From contig JANXDG010000014.1 in NCBI GenBank assembly GCA_025059805.1, forward strand, positions 1 to 35,421: 35,421 bases of DNA, written 5' to 3'. Shown piece by piece: positions 21,791-35,421 of the stretch. Below the pieces are notes generated by a model. It saw only the letters and a program-made list of their open reading frames with translations. It was not told the origin of the DNA and ran no database searches. A program made the translations under genes and the position numbers. This DNA comes from Endomicrobiia bacterium (GTDB taxonomy: Bacteria; Elusimicrobiota; Endomicrobiia; DTEH01). Positions within the stretch are counted from its first letter, which is position 1. Each line of letters begins with the position of its first letter.

Positions 21791-22659
21791 AGGTAATAAA
21801 AAAAACACATCAGATGCAAATTATATCTGATAAGTTAAGAATGCAAGGTAAAACCATTGGTTTTGTACCTACAATGGGTGCTTTACATCAAGCTCATATT
21901 GAACTCATAAAGAGAGCTAGAAAACAGAATGATATAGTTATAGTCTCAATTTTTGTTAATCCTTTACAATTTGGACCTAAAGAGGATTATAATAAATATC
22001 CAAGACCTATAAAACAAGATTTAAAAATTTGTAGGAACGAAAAAGTAGATTATGTTTTTTATCCTCCAGTAGACGAGATGTATCCTAAAGATGGAAACCT
22101 GACATTTGTTGAAGTTACTAAACTGGAGGACATACTTTGTGGTAAGTATCGTTCTGGACATTTCCGTGGAGTTGCAACTGTTGTTAGTAAACTTTTTAAT
22201 ATAGTAAAACCGCACAATGCATATTTTGGTGAAAAAGATTATCAGCAATTAAAAATTATAGAACGTATGGTTAATGACTTAAATTTTGATGTGAAAATCA
22301 TACCCGTTCCTACTGTACGTGATATTGACGGTTTAGCTTACTCAAGTAGAAATTTATATTTGTCTGATAAAGAACGCAGTGTTGCAAGTTCTTTATATAA
22401 ATCTCTTGTGTTTTGTAAAGAACTTATTCAGCAAAAAAAATATACTCTAAAACAATGTATACAAAAATCTAAGAAATATCTGGACACATTACTTTCATCT
22501 GTTGAACATAAGATTCAATATTTTGAAATTTATGATAATGATTTAAATCCGGTACCACAGAATTTAAAAGAAATTCCTTCCGGAAAGCGTATTAGAATTT
22601 TCGTAGCAGTTTTTATAGGTAATACAAGATTGATAGACAATATTGAAGTTACGGTTTAA
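21787..22659 (+). CDS. panC: Pantothenate synthetase
   Basis: At 290 residues it is full length. It has FVPTMGALHQAHIELI near residues 25-40, IFVNPLQFGPKEDYNKYPR near residues 57-75, GKYRSGHFRGVATVVSKLFNI, AYFGEKDYQQ and DGLAYSSRNLYLS. It joins D-pantoate and beta-alanine using ATP to make pantothenate, the CoA precursor. The nucleotide-binding HxGH motif is HQAH here (Gly to Ala), and MSSRN is YSSRN; both histidines are kept. The gene ends by sharing TTAA with the convergent membrane-protein gene. Confidence 0.96.
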   Translation: MKVIKKTHQMQIISDKLRMQGKTIGFVPTMGALHQAHIELIKRARKQNDIVIVSIFVNPLQFGPKEDYNKYPRPIKQDLKICRNEKVDYVFYPPVDEMYPKDGNLTFVEVTKLEDILCGKYRSGHFRGVATVVSKLFNIVKPHNAYFGEKDYQQLKIIERMVNDLNFDVKIIPVPTVRDIDGLAYSSRNLYLSDKERSVASSLYKSLVFCKELIQQKKYTLKQCIQKSKKYLDTLLSSVEHKIQYFEIYDNDLNPVPQNLKEIPSGKRIRIFVAVFIGNTRLIDNIEVTV

Positions 22660-24338
22660 TTATTCTCATAATAAAAGTCGCTATAGAGGATATCAGCGTA
22701 ATATTTACCAAGATATGTTTTTGGCCAAAACTTATCTCTTAATGTAAGATAATAGTCAAACTTTTCTTTTTGTTTGGTTAATCTATAATATTTTAGTCTA
22801 ATCTTTAGACCTGCAAGAGTATAGAATTTTTGATATTCACTAAGTGTAAGGCTTCGTTTGTATATTTCTTCCTTATAAACGACTCTGTTTAAGACACCTG
22901 CAGAAAGTAAGTATCCGTCAAAGATAGTCAAAGATAGAATTAGTATAATAAAAATCCATTTACAAACAAAAGTATTAATAATTCTGTTATATTTTGTTGA
23001 AATGAAAATAATAATGAGTAAAATGAATGTTAGAAGTAAATATACATCAGTGTCTGGTATATACCTAGGTTTCAATGTCAAATTTAGATATTTTAGTTCA
23101 ACAAAAATTTTAGTAATAAAATCTCTTATATGATATACTTTGAGAAGGTCTATTTTATTATTTGTAGACAGTATAAACAATATAAAACTCCAGAGTGAAC
23201 ACATTAACATAATTGTTATGACAAAAATTCGTGTTTTGTTTGAACTTAATTTTACTAAGAAATAAAGTCCCACTCCAACTATAAAAATTATATCTGTGAG
23301 ATACCTAATACCAAACGATGCACCGCCACCAGGTGAAATTACCAAAGATACAGTCAGTATTTCTAATATAATTACTGAAAGTAATTTTACTGAAAATAAC
23401 CAGTTTATTTTTAGTAAAATAAAAAGCCCAATAAAAGATATAAATATTAATGGTGTCCACAAAATAATTGAATGATAACTTGAGAATAAAGTTTCATAGA
23501 TTAAAAGTAGCAGATATTTATTTACGTGTAATGTGTAAATCTTAGGTGGTAGAGGTGTGCCAAACTGAATTGTTGAATTTATTAACTGCGGAGATAAACC
23601 AACAATGAATGAGACGAAGAATGTTAGAAGCAATAAAATATATTTCTTAAAATACATCGGTTTAAGCATTTTTATAAACAAATTAATAAGTAAAGGAAGC
23701 GCTAGTATAATTCTTTGCATGCGAACAGAGGAAATAATACCTAATAACACACCTAACAATGAGTATGTATAAAATGTTTCATTTTTTTCACTCAGAGTAA
23801 GCACAAAATAAAGATAAATACTGCACAGGAAAGCCGCTACAGTATGCGGATTCTGTGGAACAGAATACGAATAAAACAATAAAGGTGTCCCAATTAGTGT
23901 ACATAGACATATTAACATAGAATATTTTTTTTCTAAAAATAAATTTTCAACTAAGAACTTATAAAGAATAAACAAACTTACTAATCCTAACAATGACGAG
24001 AAAAAATTTGTTATCATAATAGAAAAGGTTTCACTTTCATAAATCATCGAAAATAAATATACTGGCCAACAAATAAAACTGTAGCCGATGTCGAAATCGT
24101 TAACAACAAAACCTTTATGTGTTATCCCTATGATTCCAGGGGTGAAAGATTTAAATATACTGTAAAAGTCATAATTTCCATATTTAAATATAGCTGGAAG
24201 ATAAGAATAGTATCCTATTCCGTCTGGGAAATGCCATATTGTAGTGGGTAGATATATTATAAGTAGAAGAAACAAAAATACATATAGAATTATTCTTTTG
24301 AAAGAATATTTTGTTTGTTCATATTTAAGCTTCTGCAT
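22656..24338 (-). CDS. GT-C-like polytopic membrane protein, putative glycosyltransferase
   Basis: The 560-residue protein has about eleven or twelve hydrophobic segments. In the first external loop it carries the acidic motif FPDGIGYYSYLPAIF (about residues 37-51), followed by NDFDIGYSFICWP. This arrangement is typical of GT-C-type glycosyltransferases that use polyprenyl-phosphate sugars, where an early loop aspartate is catalytic. A soluble tail of about 80 residues ends it. The sugar and acceptor are unknown and the assignment is by fold pattern only. It lies 52 bases after the HEAT-repeat gene on the same strand. Confidence 0.65.
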   Translation of the reverse strand: MQKLKYEQTKYSFKRIILYVFLFLLLIIYLPTTIWHFPDGIGYYSYLPAIFKYGNYDFYSIFKSFTPGIIGITHKGFVVNDFDIGYSFICWPVYLFSMIYESETFSIMITNFFSSLLGLVSLFILYKFLVENLFLEKKYSMLICLCTLIGTPLLFYSYSVPQNPHTVAAFLCSIYLYFVLTLSEKNETFYTYSLLGVLLGIISSVRMQRIILALPLLINLFIKMLKPMYFKKYILLLLTFFVSFIVGLSPQLINSTIQFGTPLPPKIYTLHVNKYLLLLIYETLFSSYHSIILWTPLIFISFIGLFILLKINWLFSVKLLSVIILEILTVSLVISPGGGASFGIRYLTDIIFIVGVGLYFLVKLSSNKTRIFVITIMLMCSLWSFILFILSTNNKIDLLKVYHIRDFITKIFVELKYLNLTLKPRYIPDTDVYLLLTFILLIIIFISTKYNRIINTFVCKWIFIILILSLTIFDGYLLSAGVLNRVVYKEEIYKRSLTLSEYQKFYTLAGLKIRLKYYRLTKQKEKFDYYLTLRDKFWPKTYLGKYYADILYSDFYYENN

Positions 24339-29315: not shown

Positions 29316-30260
29316 TTACAACATATTTTTTAAGTTTCTAATTGACCCTGGATGTGCTAATACAAGAATATCAGCACCTGCTTGTAGATAACCCATAGCA
29401 GTTGTTGTTTCCCAAACTATCCCACGTTCAATAGGTGAGTCCCCCCAAGTAGGTTCTTCCTCAACGCTCACTTTAGCTTCTTTTGTTTTCCATGTTTCTT
29501 CAGCTATTAAATTTATTATTGGTGTAGCCATAACTTTATCTCCTTGAAGACCAGCAAGACGACATCGTTCCATTATTGAATAACAATACTCAAATCCATA
29601 ACCTAACCCGCCTGTGGTATGATGCATAACAATTCTGTCTAATGGAATACCCGTATCGTTGATAAGAATATTAAGTTGTTTAGCTAAGTTTATATCTAAA
29701 GGTGTTTGTGCAATAACTGAGTGACCACAAGCAAACGCTGACAATGATATTGTTTTGTAATTTTCTTTTACTGCCATCCCTATTAGTACTTTTTCATTTT
29801 TTGTTAGTTCAGATACAAATGGTAATATTTCAGTATCTTTCTCTATATGATCGCAACCCAGAATAATAAGTGGCAATTTTGTAATTTTTAACACTTCAGG
29901 AATAAACGTAGAAAGATAATCTTTTGAATTATTTTTGATATCAGGATGACAAGAAAGCAATCTTAAACATATAGCATCAGGTCCAGATTTTTCTATTTCT
30001 TGAATCCATTTTAATGGATCTGTGATTATATCTTTTAAATTTTCGTAGAATATTGGCCAGAGTTCTTCTGGCAAATAATCTAAAACTTCGGCTGCAATTA
30101 CTGGCTTGTTAGGTATTTGTCCTTCAAATTCTAAAAATGGTAAGGTTCTCTGTCCACCAATTTTAAGCGATTTACTCCGTGTACCACCTTCAGCTTGTGT
30201 TGCTCCAATAATTACTGTGGAAATCTCTGAAGGCCATTTTTCTAATAAATATTCTACCAT
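29316..30260 (-). CDS. acsD: CO dehydrogenase/acetyl-CoA synthase delta subunit (corrinoid Fe-S protein small subunit)
   Basis: The 314-residue TIM-barrel protein matches AcsD/CdhD in order: VIIGATQAEGGTRSKS (about residues 16-31), LPFLEFEGQIPNKPVIAAEV, LPLIILGCDHIEKDTEIL, NYKTISLSAFACGHSVIA, PLDINLAKQLNILIND, GGLGYGFEYCYSIMERCRLA and ADILVLAHPGSI. With the large subunit AcsC it forms the corrinoid iron-sulfur protein, which carries the methyl group from methyl-THF to acetyl-CoA synthase. None of acsA, B, C or E is in the window. It follows folD by 38 bases with a GAGAGG ribosome site. Confidence 0.92.
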   Translation of the reverse strand: MVEYLLEKWPSEISTVIIGATQAEGGTRSKSLKIGGQRTLPFLEFEGQIPNKPVIAAEVLDYLPEELWPIFYENLKDIITDPLKWIQEIEKSGPDAICLRLLSCHPDIKNNSKDYLSTFIPEVLKITKLPLIILGCDHIEKDTEILPFVSELTKNEKVLIGMAVKENYKTISLSAFACGHSVIAQTPLDINLAKQLNILINDTGIPLDRIVMHHTTGGLGYGFEYCYSIMERCRLAGLQGDKVMATPIINLIAEETWKTKEAKVSVEEEPTWGDSPIERGIVWETTTAMGYLQAGADILVLAHPGSIRNLKNML

Positions 30261-30298: not shown

Positions 30299-31249
30299 TT
30301 AACTAAATATCTTATATCCATCAACTTCAATTCCTAATTGTAACTTAACCAAGTTTACCAAATTCTTTGCTAAAATACAAGTTGTCACTGAACCTACACC
30401 GCCTGGTACCGGGGTAATAAACGATGCTTTCTTAGAAACATTTTCAAAGTCAACATCACCTACGATTTTAGTTTTTGGTTTACCAGTTTTGTCATCAATA
30501 ACTTCTTTCCCATTTTCATCTAAAACCTTAACACGGTTTATACCAACATCAATTACTATTACTTCCTCTTTGACCATATCAGCAGTTACAAGGTTAGGTT
30601 TGCCTACGGCAACGATTAAAATCTCCGCACGTTTGGTATGTTCGGATAAGTTTTTTGTAGCAATATGACACACAGTTGGTGTTACAGAAGCAAACAGTGA
30701 TGAAAGAAGCATAAGTAATACTGGTTTTCCTACAATTTCTGAATGTCCAACTATCACTGTTTCTTTTCCTTTCAATTCTACACCAGTATCTTTCAAACAA
30801 TAAATGACAGCCAATGCTGTACACGGTGCTACAACAGGTGTAACTTCAGCGTAGAAAAGTTTACCTAAATTCTCAGCAGTAACTCCTTCAACATCTTTCT
30901 TAGGTGATATAAGATTTTGAAGTTTACGCGAGTTTAACTGTTGTGGTAAAGGAAGGTTAAGCATTATACCATGCACATTTTTGTCTTCGTTCAACTGTTG
31001 AATTGTTTGTTCTACATCTTTTTGTGTAACATTTTGGTCAAGTTGTAACAACTTAACTTCAATACCAAGTTCATCACATATCTTACATTGGTTGTTAATA
31101 TAAACTTTAGTTGCTGGATTTTCACCCACAGCTATTGTTACCACTGTAGGTTTCAAGTTAAACTGTTGTTTCAGCATTTCTACTTCTTGTAATATTTGTT
31201 TTTTGATATTTTCAGCTATTTTTGTACCGTCAATAATTTGTGCTGGCAT
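30299..31249 (-). CDS. folD: Methylene-THF dehydrogenase FolD, predicted to lack cyclohydrolase activity
   Basis: The fold and motifs are those of FolD: VYINNQCKICDELG (residues 49-62), GIMLNLPLP (94-102), a KDVEG block (118-122), the Rossmann segment VIVGHSEIVGKP and TPVPGGVGSVTTC. E. coli numbering applies without offset here. The active-site Tyr50 is kept, but Lys54 is Gln (codon CAA at 31090-31088), Gln98 is Asn and Asp121 is Glu. In characterised FolD the lysine is essential for the cyclohydrolase step, and changing it to Gln can leave dehydrogenase activity. At 316 residues it is slightly long because of an insert before VGDVDF. GAGGAG precedes the ATG. Confidence 0.93.
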   Translation of the reverse strand: MPAQIIDGTKIAENIKKQILQEVEMLKQQFNLKPTVVTIAVGENPATKVYINNQCKICDELGIEVKLLQLDQNVTQKDVEQTIQQLNEDKNVHGIMLNLPLPQQLNSRKLQNLISPKKDVEGVTAENLGKLFYAEVTPVVAPCTALAVIYCLKDTGVELKGKETVIVGHSEIVGKPVLLMLLSSLFASVTPTVCHIATKNLSEHTKRAEILIVAVGKPNLVTADMVKEEVIVIDVGINRVKVLDENGKEVIDDKTGKPKTKIVGDVDFENVSKKASFITPVPGGVGSVTTCILAKNLVNLVKLQLGIEVDGYKIFS

Positions 31250-31266: not shown

Positions 31267-32139
31267 TTATTGTTTTGGTTCAATATGTATAGTAACATCT
31301 TTAATTTGTGCATTATGATTTTTTAAAACTGTTTTTACTTCTTCTGCAATTTTATGTGCTTCTTCAACTGTTAGTTCTTTATCAACTTGTATCTCTGTTT
31401 CTATAAACAAGTGTCTACCAACAGGATGGATTTTAGTAGAGGAATGGCTGCATACACCATTTACCGAACTTATTAAGTTGCCAATTTCAGTATGTAATTT
31501 TTCTGATGGTATTGTGTCCATAACAATCAAAGCGTTCTCTTTTAAAATATCAATTCCCATTTTTAGTATGAAAATTGATATTAAGATACTTCCTACAGGA
31601 TCCATAAAAGGTAGTCCCAGCTTTGCTGCTGTGATAGCTATTAAAGCGCCAACTGAAGAGAAAGCGTCTGACCTGTGATCGTAAGCGTTTGCTATTATCA
31701 TCGGAGAGTTAAGTTTAGCCCCTACAAAATGTGTGTATCTATATAATATTTCCTTTACCAAAATGGAAATAAATGCCATATATATAGTGATATTTTTTGG
31801 TACGACATAATGTTTATGTACAAAAGTATGTAGTGACGAGTATCCTAATAAGATACCTGTGATTAAGATTAATAAAGAAACGAATATAGCCACCAGAACT
31901 TCTATATTTTCATGTCCATAAGGATGATTTTTATCTGCGGGTTTGTGTGAATACTTCAACGAGATAAATACTGTTAATGTTGCAACTCCGTCAGATAAAG
32001 AATGTATAGCATCAGCAATCATTGTTTGGCTTTTTCCCAAAAATCCAGCAATAAATTTCGCTATTACTAAGAAAAAATTTATTATTAATCCGATTAAAGT
32101 ACAGTTTTTATCATCTATGAAATTGATTTTTATTTTCAT
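31267..32139 (-). CDS. Cation diffusion facilitator family transporter
   Basis: The 290-residue protein has about six membrane segments. Metal-site motifs are HSLSD in the second (around residues 46-50) and DHRSD in the fifth (around residues 154-158), followed by a cytoplasmic ferredoxin-like C-terminal domain. HPYGHENIE matches the loop after TM2. Such proteins export divalent metals (Zn, Fe, Mn, Co or Ni) in exchange for protons; the HxxxD/DxxxD pair does not settle the metal. The start is 2 bases after the ancestral end of the cupin gene, and folD follows 17 bases later. Confidence 0.92.
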   Translation of the reverse strand: MKIKINFIDDKNCTLIGLIINFFLVIAKFIAGFLGKSQTMIADAIHSLSDGVATLTVFISLKYSHKPADKNHPYGHENIEVLVAIFVSLLILITGILLGYSSLHTFVHKHYVVPKNITIYMAFISILVKEILYRYTHFVGAKLNSPMIIANAYDHRSDAFSSVGALIAITAAKLGLPFMDPVGSILISIFILKMGIDILKENALIVMDTIPSEKLHTEIGNLISSVNGVCSHSSTKIHPVGRHLFIETEIQVDKELTVEEAHKIAEEVKTVLKNHNAQIKDVTIHIEPKQ

Positions 32140-32486: not shown

Positions 32487-33779
32487 CTAAACTTTCCCTG
32501 CAATAATGTATGATAGAAAAATTAAACATAATATATACATCACCGGGCTAACTTCTTTGATCCTTCCTGAGATAAATTTAATAATTACATAACTTACAAT
32601 ACCGAACATAAGACCGTTAGCAATACTGTATGTGAACGGCATAGTGATAAGAGTTAAAAACGCAGGTAAACTTTCAGTAATATCTTCAAAGTGTATCCTT
32701 AATACAGGTTCTAACATTAACAATCCAACTACTACTAATGCAGGTGCAGTTGCTTCTTTTGGTATAGTGGTGGCAAGTGGCCAGAGGAACAAAGATAACA
32801 GAAACAGTACACCTGTTGTTACAGCAGTGATTCCTGTGCGGCCACCTTCGGAAATTCCTGCTGCACTTTCTACATAAGTTGTCACCGTAGATGTGCCAAA
32901 GATTGCACCTAACATTGTTCCGATAGAATCAGAAACTAACACGCGGCCAACTCGTGGGAAACTGCCATCTTTTTGTATGATACCGAGTTTTGCTGCAAGT
33001 CCGACAATAGTACCTAATGTATCAAACAAGTCAACAAAGGTAAAAGTAAACACTACAGTTATGATACCAAGTTTTATAGCATCTAATATTTTAAGTTTTA
33101 AAAATGTTTTTGAAAAAATCTCTGCTGATGGTAATGCAACAAGTTTTTCAGGCAACTGTGTGAGTCTTTGTCCTTCTGATGTTGGAACAAAAAGTCCAGC
33201 TATCGTTATTATTAAAATTGTCCACAATAAAGCACCTTTTACACGTTTTGCCATAAGTATGCCTGCAATAAATAGTCCTGCAATTGATAAGATTACAGAA
33301 TATAATTTGATATTTCCCAGTGTAACCATTGTAGCATCAGATTTTACCACAATTCCTGCATGTTGAAGCCCTATTAAAGCAATAAACAGTCCAATACCTC
33401 CACTTACTGCGTATTTTATATTCAGTGGTATTCCCTTAACGATTTCCTGCCGAAGAGGTAATATAGAAATTAAAAAGAATAATAATCCATCAAGAAATAC
33501 AGCACCTAACGCAACCTCCCACGGAATTTTCATACCTAAACATACGCTATAAGCAAAATAAGCATTAAGTCCCATACCGGGAGCTAACGCAAACGGATGT
33601 TTAGCATATATACCCATAAGTATACATGATAAACCAGAAGCAAGAGCAGTTGCCACCATCACGGCGTGTCTGTCCATACCACAGTCAGCAAGTATCGCAG
33701 AGTTTACAAACAATATATACGCCATTGTCATAAATGTGGTGATACCGGCAATAATTTCCGTTTTTAAAGTTTGTTTCAT
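32487..33779 (-). CDS. AzgA-type NCS2 family purine/nucleobase permease
   Basis: The 430-residue polytopic protein begins LKTEIIAGITTFMTMAYILFVN, the hallmark start of AzgA-like permeases. It has LAPGMGLNAYFAYSV near residues 65-79, TFVDLFDTLGTIVGLA near residues 246-261, and GTSTVTTYVESAAGISEGGRTG near residues 294-315. The family imports purines such as adenine, guanine and hypoxanthine by proton symport. Its ATG overlaps the fchA stop (ATGA), tying it to folate one-carbon genes. Substrate specificity is inferred from the family. Confidence 0.93.
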   Translation of the reverse strand: MKQTLKTEIIAGITTFMTMAYILFVNSAILADCGMDRHAVMVATALASGLSCILMGIYAKHPFALAPGMGLNAYFAYSVCLGMKIPWEVALGAVFLDGLLFFLISILPLRQEIVKGIPLNIKYAVSGGIGLFIALIGLQHAGIVVKSDATMVTLGNIKLYSVILSIAGLFIAGILMAKRVKGALLWTILIITIAGLFVPTSEGQRLTQLPEKLVALPSAEIFSKTFLKLKILDAIKLGIITVVFTFTFVDLFDTLGTIVGLAAKLGIIQKDGSFPRVGRVLVSDSIGTMLGAIFGTSTVTTYVESAAGISEGGRTGITAVTTGVLFLLSLFLWPLATTIPKEATAPALVVVGLLMLEPVLRIHFEDITESLPAFLTLITMPFTYSIANGLMFGIVSYVIIKFISGRIKEVSPVMYILCLIFLSYIIAGKV

Positions 33780-34423
33780 ATTTGTATCTTTTGCAAAACC
33801 TTTTTAGAAATAATTTTTGTATCGGTAATAATTTTTCGTACTTTTTTCTTAATTTCAGAGGTGTATTGATGTTCTTTTATAAATTTTAGGTTGATAAAAA
33901 CATTATACTTTGCCGCAAGTACTCCTGCCTGAAGGAAGATAACACCACAAGCAATGTCAGTTATGAGATTTTTATTACCTATTTTTATTAATCGTTCAGC
34001 TACAGGCATACAGCTGTGTGCGAGTTTCATAGTTTCAAACGCAGTATCAGCAGATTCTTTAAGAGCAATTTGTATTTGTTTCTGTCGTAATTCTTCATCT
34101 AACGGTGTTGTCTTAGGTAATTTATATGCAGAGGAAACTTTATTATAAGCTTCAACATCTTTGTCAATAAACTTTTGTAATTCTTGTAATAAATGTTCAA
34201 GTTCAGCTATAATTTTTTTAATTTCATCTTGATATTGTTCATATCCTTTTTTACCAACAGTAAAGTTTGCTACCATAAGTAAGCAACTTATACCACAGCT
34301 TGCTACTAACGCAGAAGCTGAACCTCCTCCTGGTGCGGGTAGGTTTGAAGATAAATCTTCAAGATATTTTTTTATAGTGGAGAGTAAATAAGATGAAGTT
34401 GGTTCTGTCATAGAGGTGTACAT
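33776..34423 (-). CDS. fchA: Methenyl-THF cyclohydrolase / formimino-THF cyclodeaminase
   Basis: The 215-residue helical protein has the cyclodeaminase family signature LPAPGGGSASALVASCG near residues 28-44, CMPVAERLIKIGN near residues 138-150, and TDIACGVIFLQAGVLAAKYNVFINL near residues 155-179. FchA enzymes interconvert 10-formyl-THF and 5,10-methenyl-THF, or deaminate formimino-THF to methenyl-THF. In this cluster it can supply the cyclohydrolase step that the altered FolD seems unable to do. The ATG at 34423 is 7 bases after the HAMP gene; an ATG at 34411 is possible. Confidence 0.92.
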   Translation of the reverse strand: MYTSMTEPTSSYLLSTIKKYLEDLSSNLPAPGGGSASALVASCGISCLLMVANFTVGKKGYEQYQDEIKKIIAELEHLLQELQKFIDKDVEAYNKVSSAYKLPKTTPLDEELRQKQIQIALKESADTAFETMKLAHSCMPVAERLIKIGNKNLITDIACGVIFLQAGVLAAKYNVFINLKFIKEHQYTSEIKKKVRKIITDTKIISKKVLQKIQI

Positions 34424-34430
34424 TTAATAC

Positions 34431-34892
34431 TTATCTTATAGCTGTATTTATAAGTTTGTTTATTAACTCAACGAACGGTGCTGTGTAATCACCTTTTCTT
34501 ACAGAGACAGGATGTATTGGCGTTTTTCCTTCTATCATACTTTGTATCTCACGCTGTAACCTATTTAAAGGTCCCATAATACGATGTACTAAATATAAAC
34601 TCATAATTACTCCTATTAACATTAGAACTATACCTTCTATAATAAACGCAATCATAACATTTGTTTGTACACTTTTTAGTATCTCAACAATCGTGTCAAG
34701 TGAAAGTGCAACATTTGTTTGTTCAGCATGTTTTGATAGCGCATTAATAAGTTTCGTAGAATGAGCGAATCCAAAGTGAATAGTAATACCTGTTATAATA
34801 AGTGCAAAAATTATAGCACCAAGAATATATTTGAAGTACCAAAATTTTACATCTTTGATAAACAAGAAACTTAATAACCTCCTTTTTTTCAT
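34431..34892 (-). CDS. Two-TM HAMP domain protein without output domain
   Basis: The 153-residue protein has a basic N-terminus, TM1 near residues 22-44 (ILGAIIFALIITGITIHFG), a short external loop to about residue 78, and TM2 near residues 79-102. A cytoplasmic HAMP-like segment follows with the conserved proline in MGPLNRLQREIQSMIEGK, then VRKGDYTAPFVELINKLI. Nothing lies beyond the HAMP: no kinase, cyclase or methyl-accepting domain. It probably senses or scaffolds at the membrane. GGAGGG precedes the ATG. Its place between metF and fchA is unexplained. Confidence 0.75.
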   Translation of the reverse strand: MKKRRLLSFLFIKDVKFWYFKYILGAIIFALIITGITIHFGFAHSTKLINALSKHAEQTNVALSLDTIVEILKSVQTNVMIAFIIEGIVLMLIGVIMSLYLVHRIMGPLNRLQREIQSMIEGKTPIHPVSVRKGDYTAPFVELINKLINTAIR

Positions 34893-34923: not shown

Positions 34924-35421
34924 CTATAAATTTAAATTTGCTAAGTTTAAAACCTGAGGAACTTTGTCATCCCAACCAAGCGGCATAATATGTATACCGT
35001 TGCAGTAATCTTTAACTTCTTTAATAATTTTTGCTGCAATTTCTACACCAGTTTGTCCTGATTTTGTTTTTTCTTTATCTTTTTTCAATTCTTCAATTAA
35101 ATATTCTGGGACATTCACTCCAGCTACATTTTCGTTCATAAACTTTGCCATTCCAATAGATTTAAGTATAGTTATCCCTGCCATCACTGGTATGTTGCCA
35201 AAATTCTTTCTTACTATTTCCATGAACTTAATAAATTTATCTGGGTTAAACACAAGTTGTGTTTGAAAAAATTCAGCACCTGCTTTTATTTTTTTCTCCA
35301 TTTTAAACAGTTGTGGCTCAAGCGGTTCCGCTTCTGGTGATACTACCGCGCCTATACAAAAATTTGGTGGTTCACCGTCAAGTTTGTTTCCTGCTAGGTC
35401 ATATCCTTCCATTAGTCGCTT
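34924..35421 (-). CDS. metF: 5,10-methylenetetrahydrofolate reductase, C-terminal part (cut by window edge)
   Basis: The frame is open across the window end (KRLMEGYDLAG...), so an internal ATG at 35412 is not the true start. The visible 165 residues are the C-terminal half of a MetF TIM barrel: FCIGAVVSPEAEP, KIKAGAEFFQTQLVFNPDKF, IPVMAGITILKS and the terminal GIHIMPLGWDDKVPQVL. It reduces methylene-THF to methyl-THF, the methyl donor for the corrinoid protein. It is the most upstream visible gene of the one-carbon block. Confidence 0.93.
   Translation of the reverse strand, partial: KRLMEGYDLAGNKLDGEPPNFCIGAVVSPEAEPLEPQLFKMEKKIKAGAEFFQTQLVFNPDKFIKFMEIVRKNFGNIPVMAGITILKSIGMAKFMNENVAGVNVPEYLIEELKKDKEKTKSGQTGVEIAAKIIKEVKDYCNGIHIMPLGWDDKVPQVLNLANLNL

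Follow-up and report, generated by a model that had tools for sequence, protein, structure and literature searches.

In Clostridium perfringens, FolD is reportedly a monofunctional dehydrogenase, with FchA acting as the cyclohydrolase and Fhs supplying 10-formyl-THF (Aluri et al. 2016, Microbiology 162:145). Monofunctional MTHF dehydrogenases also exist in the acetogen Peptostreptococcus productus and, as MTD1, in yeast (PMC6443876, PMC11064299), and in the acetogen C. autoethanogenum fhs, fchA and folD are present as separate genes (PMC9040625). In the human enzyme, Lys56 and Gln100 cooperate in the active site (PMC6443876, PMC3368264); the edge of the pterin is bound by Asp125, and Tyr52 forms a stack with the substrate (PMC6443876, PMC3368264, PMC9173628). 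A sequence-only reading of the DNA described here had noted that the lysine is essential for cyclohydrolase activity and dispensable for the dehydrogenase, and the E. coli FolD mutants agree: in K54N the cyclohydrolase is undetectable and ~19% of the dehydrogenase activity remains, a two-residue deletion is likewise without detectable cyclohydrolase, and Q98H retains ~1% of cyclohydrolase and ~8% of dehydrogenase (PMC5688156).

FolD and its active-site residues

The window (the whole stretch of DNA analysed, 35,421 nucleotides) comes from a genome of class Endomicrobia (Elusimicrobiota) that comprises 1.64 Mb in 85 contigs and is 92% complete. Its folD gene lies at 30299..31249 on the minus strand, starting with an ATG at 31249 directly preceded by GAGGAG, a good ribosome-binding site. 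The open reading frame, its translation, the Pfam domains and an AlphaFold model together describe a protein of 316 amino acids predicted to be a methylene-THF dehydrogenase without cyclohydrolase activity. It is clearly a member of the FolD family, since PF00763 (THF_DHG_CYH; 2.5e-35, 121.6 bits) and PF02882 (THF_DHG_CYH_C; 5.8e-54, 182.2 bits) both exceed the gathering score. The model has a pLDDT of 91 and its best 50 structure matches are exclusively FolD/MTHFD proteins; identity to the best solved structures is ~35-41% in full-length alignment, with TM-scores (by query length) of up to 0.87. The top-scoring NCBIfam models carry the bifunctional label, the best at 274 bits against a cut-off of 355, and the protein falls below the cut-off of all 25 models listed.

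The residue numbers coincide with those of E. coli FolD, and translation and alignment to that numbering confirmed the three replacements, and the retained tyrosine, that had been read from the sequence. Codon 50 (31100..31102, minus strand like those that follow) is TAT, giving the conserved Tyr in the context VYINNQ. Codon 54 (31088..31090) is CAA, placing Gln where bifunctional FolDs have the catalytic Lys of the Y-x3-K motif. Codon 98 (30956..30958) specifies Asn in place of Gln (GIMLNLPLP here versus GILVQLPLP), at a position that varies among relatives, and codon 121 (30887..30889) specifies Glu in place of Asp (KDVEG versus KDVDG), which is invariant in the clade. The G-rich NAD(P) region is retained, as had also been claimed, with H169 at the R/A of G[RA]S.

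Across 19 aligned sequences, with identities down to 46%, neither Gln54 nor Glu121 varies, and so these changes can be due neither to sequencing error nor to chance. Tyr50, an acidic residue at 121 and the nucleotide-binding motif are conserved throughout the aligned clade, as is His169; many FolDs have Arg at the latter position, although C. jejuni FolD also lacks it, and the histidine may weaken NADP binding. Residue 98 is less constant. Among the 24 Gln54/Glu121 sequences placed on a tree (see below) it is Gln in 15, Asn in 7, His in 1 and Thr in 1; since most Gln54 relatives retain Gln98, Asn98 is not a defining change.

The folD-fchA neighbourhood

The genes around folD lie on the same strand: the end of metF, a small conserved protein, fchA, a permease judged from its sequence to be NCS2-type, a cation-efflux gene, folD and acsD. 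The stand-alone cyclohydrolase gene that the sequence-only reading had placed in this block is indeed there. It lies 2.5 kb upstream of folD (33776..34423, minus strand) and encodes a methenyl-THF cyclohydrolase of 215 amino acids (PF04961, 8e-60) consisting of the FTCD_C domain only, without a formiminotransferase domain. The best PDB match of FchA is 7vg4, a methenyltetrahydrofolate cyclohydrolase; against the NCBIfam FchA equivalog NF045657 it scored 162 bits (1.1e-47), below the cut-off of 275. A search of the genome found this single FTCD_C protein, in the window like the single FolD. A second folD, for which the earlier reading had proposed looking, was absent from the 1.64 Mb searched (92% complete), the window copy being the only one.

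Of the flanking genes, metF (methylene-THF reductase; 34924..35421, minus strand; PF02219, 4.6e-24) runs past the end of the window, which includes its 3' part, and acsD/cdhD (29316..30260, minus strand; PF03599, 6.7e-31), for the corrinoid iron-sulfur protein delta subunit of CODH/ACS, exceeds the NCBIfam cut-off for acetyl-CoA decarbonylase/synthase delta. Fhs and AcsB are encoded elsewhere in the source genome, which therefore contains Fhs, MetF, AcsD and AcsB. In relatives the order is fhs - RnfC2/metV - metV - metF - fchA - folD, with insertions. Among Gln54 loci long enough to judge, fchA adjoins or is near folD in nearly all, and these clusters also hold fhs, RnfC2/metV, metV and metF. 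The gene order in relatives, together with Fhs and AcsB in the genome, identifies this as a Wood-Ljungdahl methyl-branch cluster.

Other genes were also noted. The cation efflux (CDF) transporter gene (31267..32139, minus strand; PF01545) has no known pathway role; a gene of this kind also lies between fchA and folD in three further loci, so that it recurs in more than one genus of the family although nothing obvious ties it to folate chemistry. The small protein adjoining fchA (34431..34892, minus strand; 153 amino acids) has no Pfam family; it shows weak similarity to the membrane part of sensor kinases and has a homologue beside fchA in one of those three loci. The window also contains purH, whose product uses 10-formyl-THF, and, at 22656-24338, a hydrophobic protein of 560 amino acids without a Pfam family.

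It is highly improbable that neither activity survives in this FolD, or that its substrate has changed, and that an unrelated enzyme carries out the dehydrogenation. Such a loss would fit the D121A mutant, which is reportedly badly impaired in both activities (Sah and Varshney 2015), and also E. coli Q98H, which keeps only 8% of its dehydrogenase (PMC5688156). However, the gene is single copy, the clade as a whole conserves Tyr50, the nucleotide-binding motif and an acid at 121, E121 retains a carboxylate where the pterin binds, and the place of folD is in the Wood-Ljungdahl cluster of fhs, fchA and metF.

Residue 54 and FchA across Elusimicrobiota and Clostridia

The genomes compared were metagenome-assembled, one per species. 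In the class sample (the source genome and 59 relatives) 12 genomes have a Gln54/Glu121 FolD and 48 a Lys54 FolD. A stand-alone FTCD_C protein was found in 11 of the 12 and in 0 of the 48 (Fisher p 3.5e-11, treating genomes as independent). The exception has Gln54 and no FTCD_C in an assembly that is 79% complete, where folD begins 10 bases from a contig end. In the wider phylum, two families (f12 and f15) also have the Gln54/Glu121 FolD, with fchA next to folD. The sequence-only reading had expected all three changes to co-occur with fchA. This expectation holds for the loss of Lys54, within the class, the phylum and Clostridia, but not for Asn98, which is variable, nor for Glu121, which is specific to the clade.

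Elsewhere in the phylum the lysine is also missing. In gut Elusimicrobiaceae (family f13) all fetched FolDs with a readable residue 54 have Glu there, combined with Pro98 except for two that have Ala98, and these genomes carry a separate stand-alone FTCD_C protein of ~200 amino acids. Their loci (L235-L255 and L212-L217), with Glu54 and mostly Pro98, represent a second, separate lysine loss in the phylum. One genome of family f14 (G062) has a Gln54 FolD and no FTCD_C, plus a second FolD with Lys54, Gln98 and Asp121; judging from these residues, its cyclohydrolase partner is the canonical FolD. The Gln54 FolD of G062 (L218:5019-6377) is fused, in one frame, behind a receiver domain (PF00072, 8.6e-17) whose usual phospho-acceptor Asp looks to be Asn, downstream of an apparent histidine kinase and an NtrC-type regulator. 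A search for more receiver-FolD fusions in the class of G062 had this one genome to cover, which is all that the class contains.

Counting every FTCD_C match as FchA was rejected. The domain occurs in 186 of 295 Elusimicrobiota genomes, and in families f16, f21 and f22 the frames listed are ~450 amino acids or more, those translated starting with a formiminotransferase; they are fusions of the FTCD type, FTCD being an enzyme of histidine degradation, and the FolDs read from these families retain Lys54. In six loci of f21 and f22 the Lys54 FolDs have E, D, V or I at 98 and Glu121, in genomes whose FTCD_C domains are mostly part of FTCD fusions; these FolDs, too, may have a weakened cyclohydrolase. 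A Planctomycetota genome with Gln54, Thr98 and Glu121 has a longer FTCD-like protein instead of a stand-alone FchA. In G007 (locus L224) and G010 (family f4), AcsB, FchA and the Gln54 FolD were found and Fhs was not. Locus L023 (G038, family f10 of Endomicrobia) combines AcsB with a canonical Lys54 FolD, without Fhs or FTCD_C.

FTCD_C was found in 102 of 291 sampled clostridial genomes, mostly as stand-alone frames. Counting only genomes whose FolD was read, a FolD without the lysine is present in 47 of 49 FchA-positive genomes and in 1 of 38 FchA-negative ones (Fisher p 5e-21, relatedness ignored); the single FchA-negative case has Ala54, the other 37 having Lys54. Two of the 47 also carry a Lys54 copy. 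Residue 54 of the Lys-less clostridial FolDs is Ala, Ile, Leu, Val or Gln, and nearly all of them retain Asp121. Lys54/Glu121 FolDs occur in Elusimicrobiota, and Asp121Glu was therefore discarded as an indicator that the lysine is gone; as far as these sequences tell, that change is clade-specific and is not of itself tied to the loss.

The remaining two FchA-positive clostridial genomes have a Lys54 FolD only, and FchA is therefore not always a replacement. They are consistent with a FolD that is still bifunctional, in which another residue or a water replaces Lys54 and FchA merely adds capacity for a high Wood-Ljungdahl flux. A computational study of MTHFD2 also left the base of the cyclohydrolase step unpinned (PMC9173628). 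This explanation is nevertheless very unlikely: E. coli K54N and the two-residue deletion have no detectable cyclohydrolase (PMC5688156), Lys54 persists in 48 of 48 relatives from the class and, where Clostridia lack FchA, in 37 of 38 genomes, and no chemistry able to substitute is common to Q, E, A, I, L and V, the residues that took its place.

A tree was built of 120 FolDs, from whose alignment the three trait columns had been removed. The Gln54/Glu121 sequences form one group (24 rows, support 100/98) of Elusimicrobiota and two Planctomycetota, the Glu54 sequences a separate supported group within the Lys54 lineages of Elusimicrobiota, and the clostridial Gln54/Asp121 sequences a third (100/99); resolution is poor for the clostridial sequences with Ala, Ile, Val or Leu. 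Loss of the lysine requires 3 changes on the tree, 2 of them on supported branches. Nearly all independent pairs agree with FchA, a comparison that cannot reach significance because there are only 2-3 pairs. The small number of separate losses, the frequent adjacency of fchA and folD, and the union of Elusimicrobiota and Planctomycetota in one Q54/E121 clade would all suit a folD-fchA cassette that is passed on, by descent or by transfer, in one piece, with Lys54 loss as its passenger and the co-occurrence reflecting shared history instead of functional compensation. We consider this unlikely, since the replacement residues differ between lineages nested among different Lys54 relatives (gut Elusimicrobiaceae within Elusimicrobiota, and Clostridia apart) and since G062 has a canonical FolD in place of FchA; a co-inherited pair would, moreover, be a split enzyme all the same.

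Proposed division of labour and comparison with known systems

In the proposed mechanism, Lys54 would hydrogen-bond the pterin carbonyl and be required for hydrolysis of methenyl-THF, so that its loss would abolish or strongly reduce the cyclohydrolase. From the roles of the Lys, Gln and Asp residues in the mutants and in the human enzyme, Gln54 should remove hydrolysis; the work of MacKenzie and of Varshney on human K56Q, on mutants of Q100 and D125, and on E. coli K54S is reported to agree. Methylene-THF dehydrogenase activity would be maintained by Tyr50, by the nucleotide-binding domain and by the acid at 121, where Glu preserves the carboxylate at the pterin-binding place. The nearby FchA would interconvert 10-formyl-THF and methenyl-THF, and the two enzymes would cover the pair of intermediate reactions that link Fhs to MetF in the methyl branch. 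We put at a little under nine in ten the probability that FolD here is a dehydrogenase only and that FchA performs the cyclohydrolase step of the Wood-Ljungdahl methyl branch. This is the split first suggested from the sequence, and the single folD, the co-occurrence and the mutant data all support it; the individual enzyme activities and the direction of flux we infer.

Since the E. coli mutants lose part of the dehydrogenase too, full activity here presupposes compensation. Gln54, Glu121 and His169 are all invariant in the aligned clade members, and it is conceivable, if doubtful, that they represent a coordinated re-tuning that restored or raised the dehydrogenase rate, possibly with a changed NAD/NADP preference, to give a specialised reductive Wood-Ljungdahl enzyme; as tentatively, gain of FchA could lead across bacteria to a predictable loss of Lys54, with a replacement differing in each lineage.

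The locus would be a clear natural example of the splitting of a bifunctional enzyme, with the same residue lost in several lineages. Residue 54 and a stand-alone FchA reveal when the bifunctional NCBIfam label is wrong, and correct labelling of FolD matters for acetogen models and one-carbon engineering. Insensitivity to FolD inhibitors that bind Lys54, such as carolacton, is also predicted; the residual dehydrogenase of E. coli K54N is insensitive to carolacton (PMC5688156).

This FolD shares its fold, domains, Tyr50 and dehydrogenase site with the bifunctional E. coli FolD, C. jejuni 3p2o and human MTHFD1/2 and, unlike them, lacks the Y-x3-K lysine, Gln98 and Asp121. The P. productus enzyme and yeast MTD1 are dehydrogenase-only enzymes of the same reaction, and MTD1 is distant in sequence (E 1.8e-16). 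The FolD of gut Elusimicrobiaceae has likewise lost Lys54 and is accompanied by a stand-alone FTCD_C protein of ~200 amino acids, but it has Glu54, mostly Pro98 and a retained Asp121, and is of separate origin. With C. perfringens, as that system is reported, the proposed division of labour between FolD and FchA is the same: here the catalytic lysine is absent, Tyr50 and the nucleotide site are present, and a stand-alone FchA occurs in a genome (92% complete) without a canonical FolD. The Lys-less FolDs read from the sampled Clostridia mostly have A, I, L or V at 54, F, L or M at 98, and Asp121, whereas the present protein has Gln54, Asn98 and Glu121, falls into a clade of its own and comes from a Wood-Ljungdahl organism outside their phylum. 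The split between FolD and FchA is thus already known from clostridia, and here it has probably been reached with other residues and in another lineage; the Gln54-type version, and how closely loss of Lys54 tracks FchA across phyla, look undescribed.
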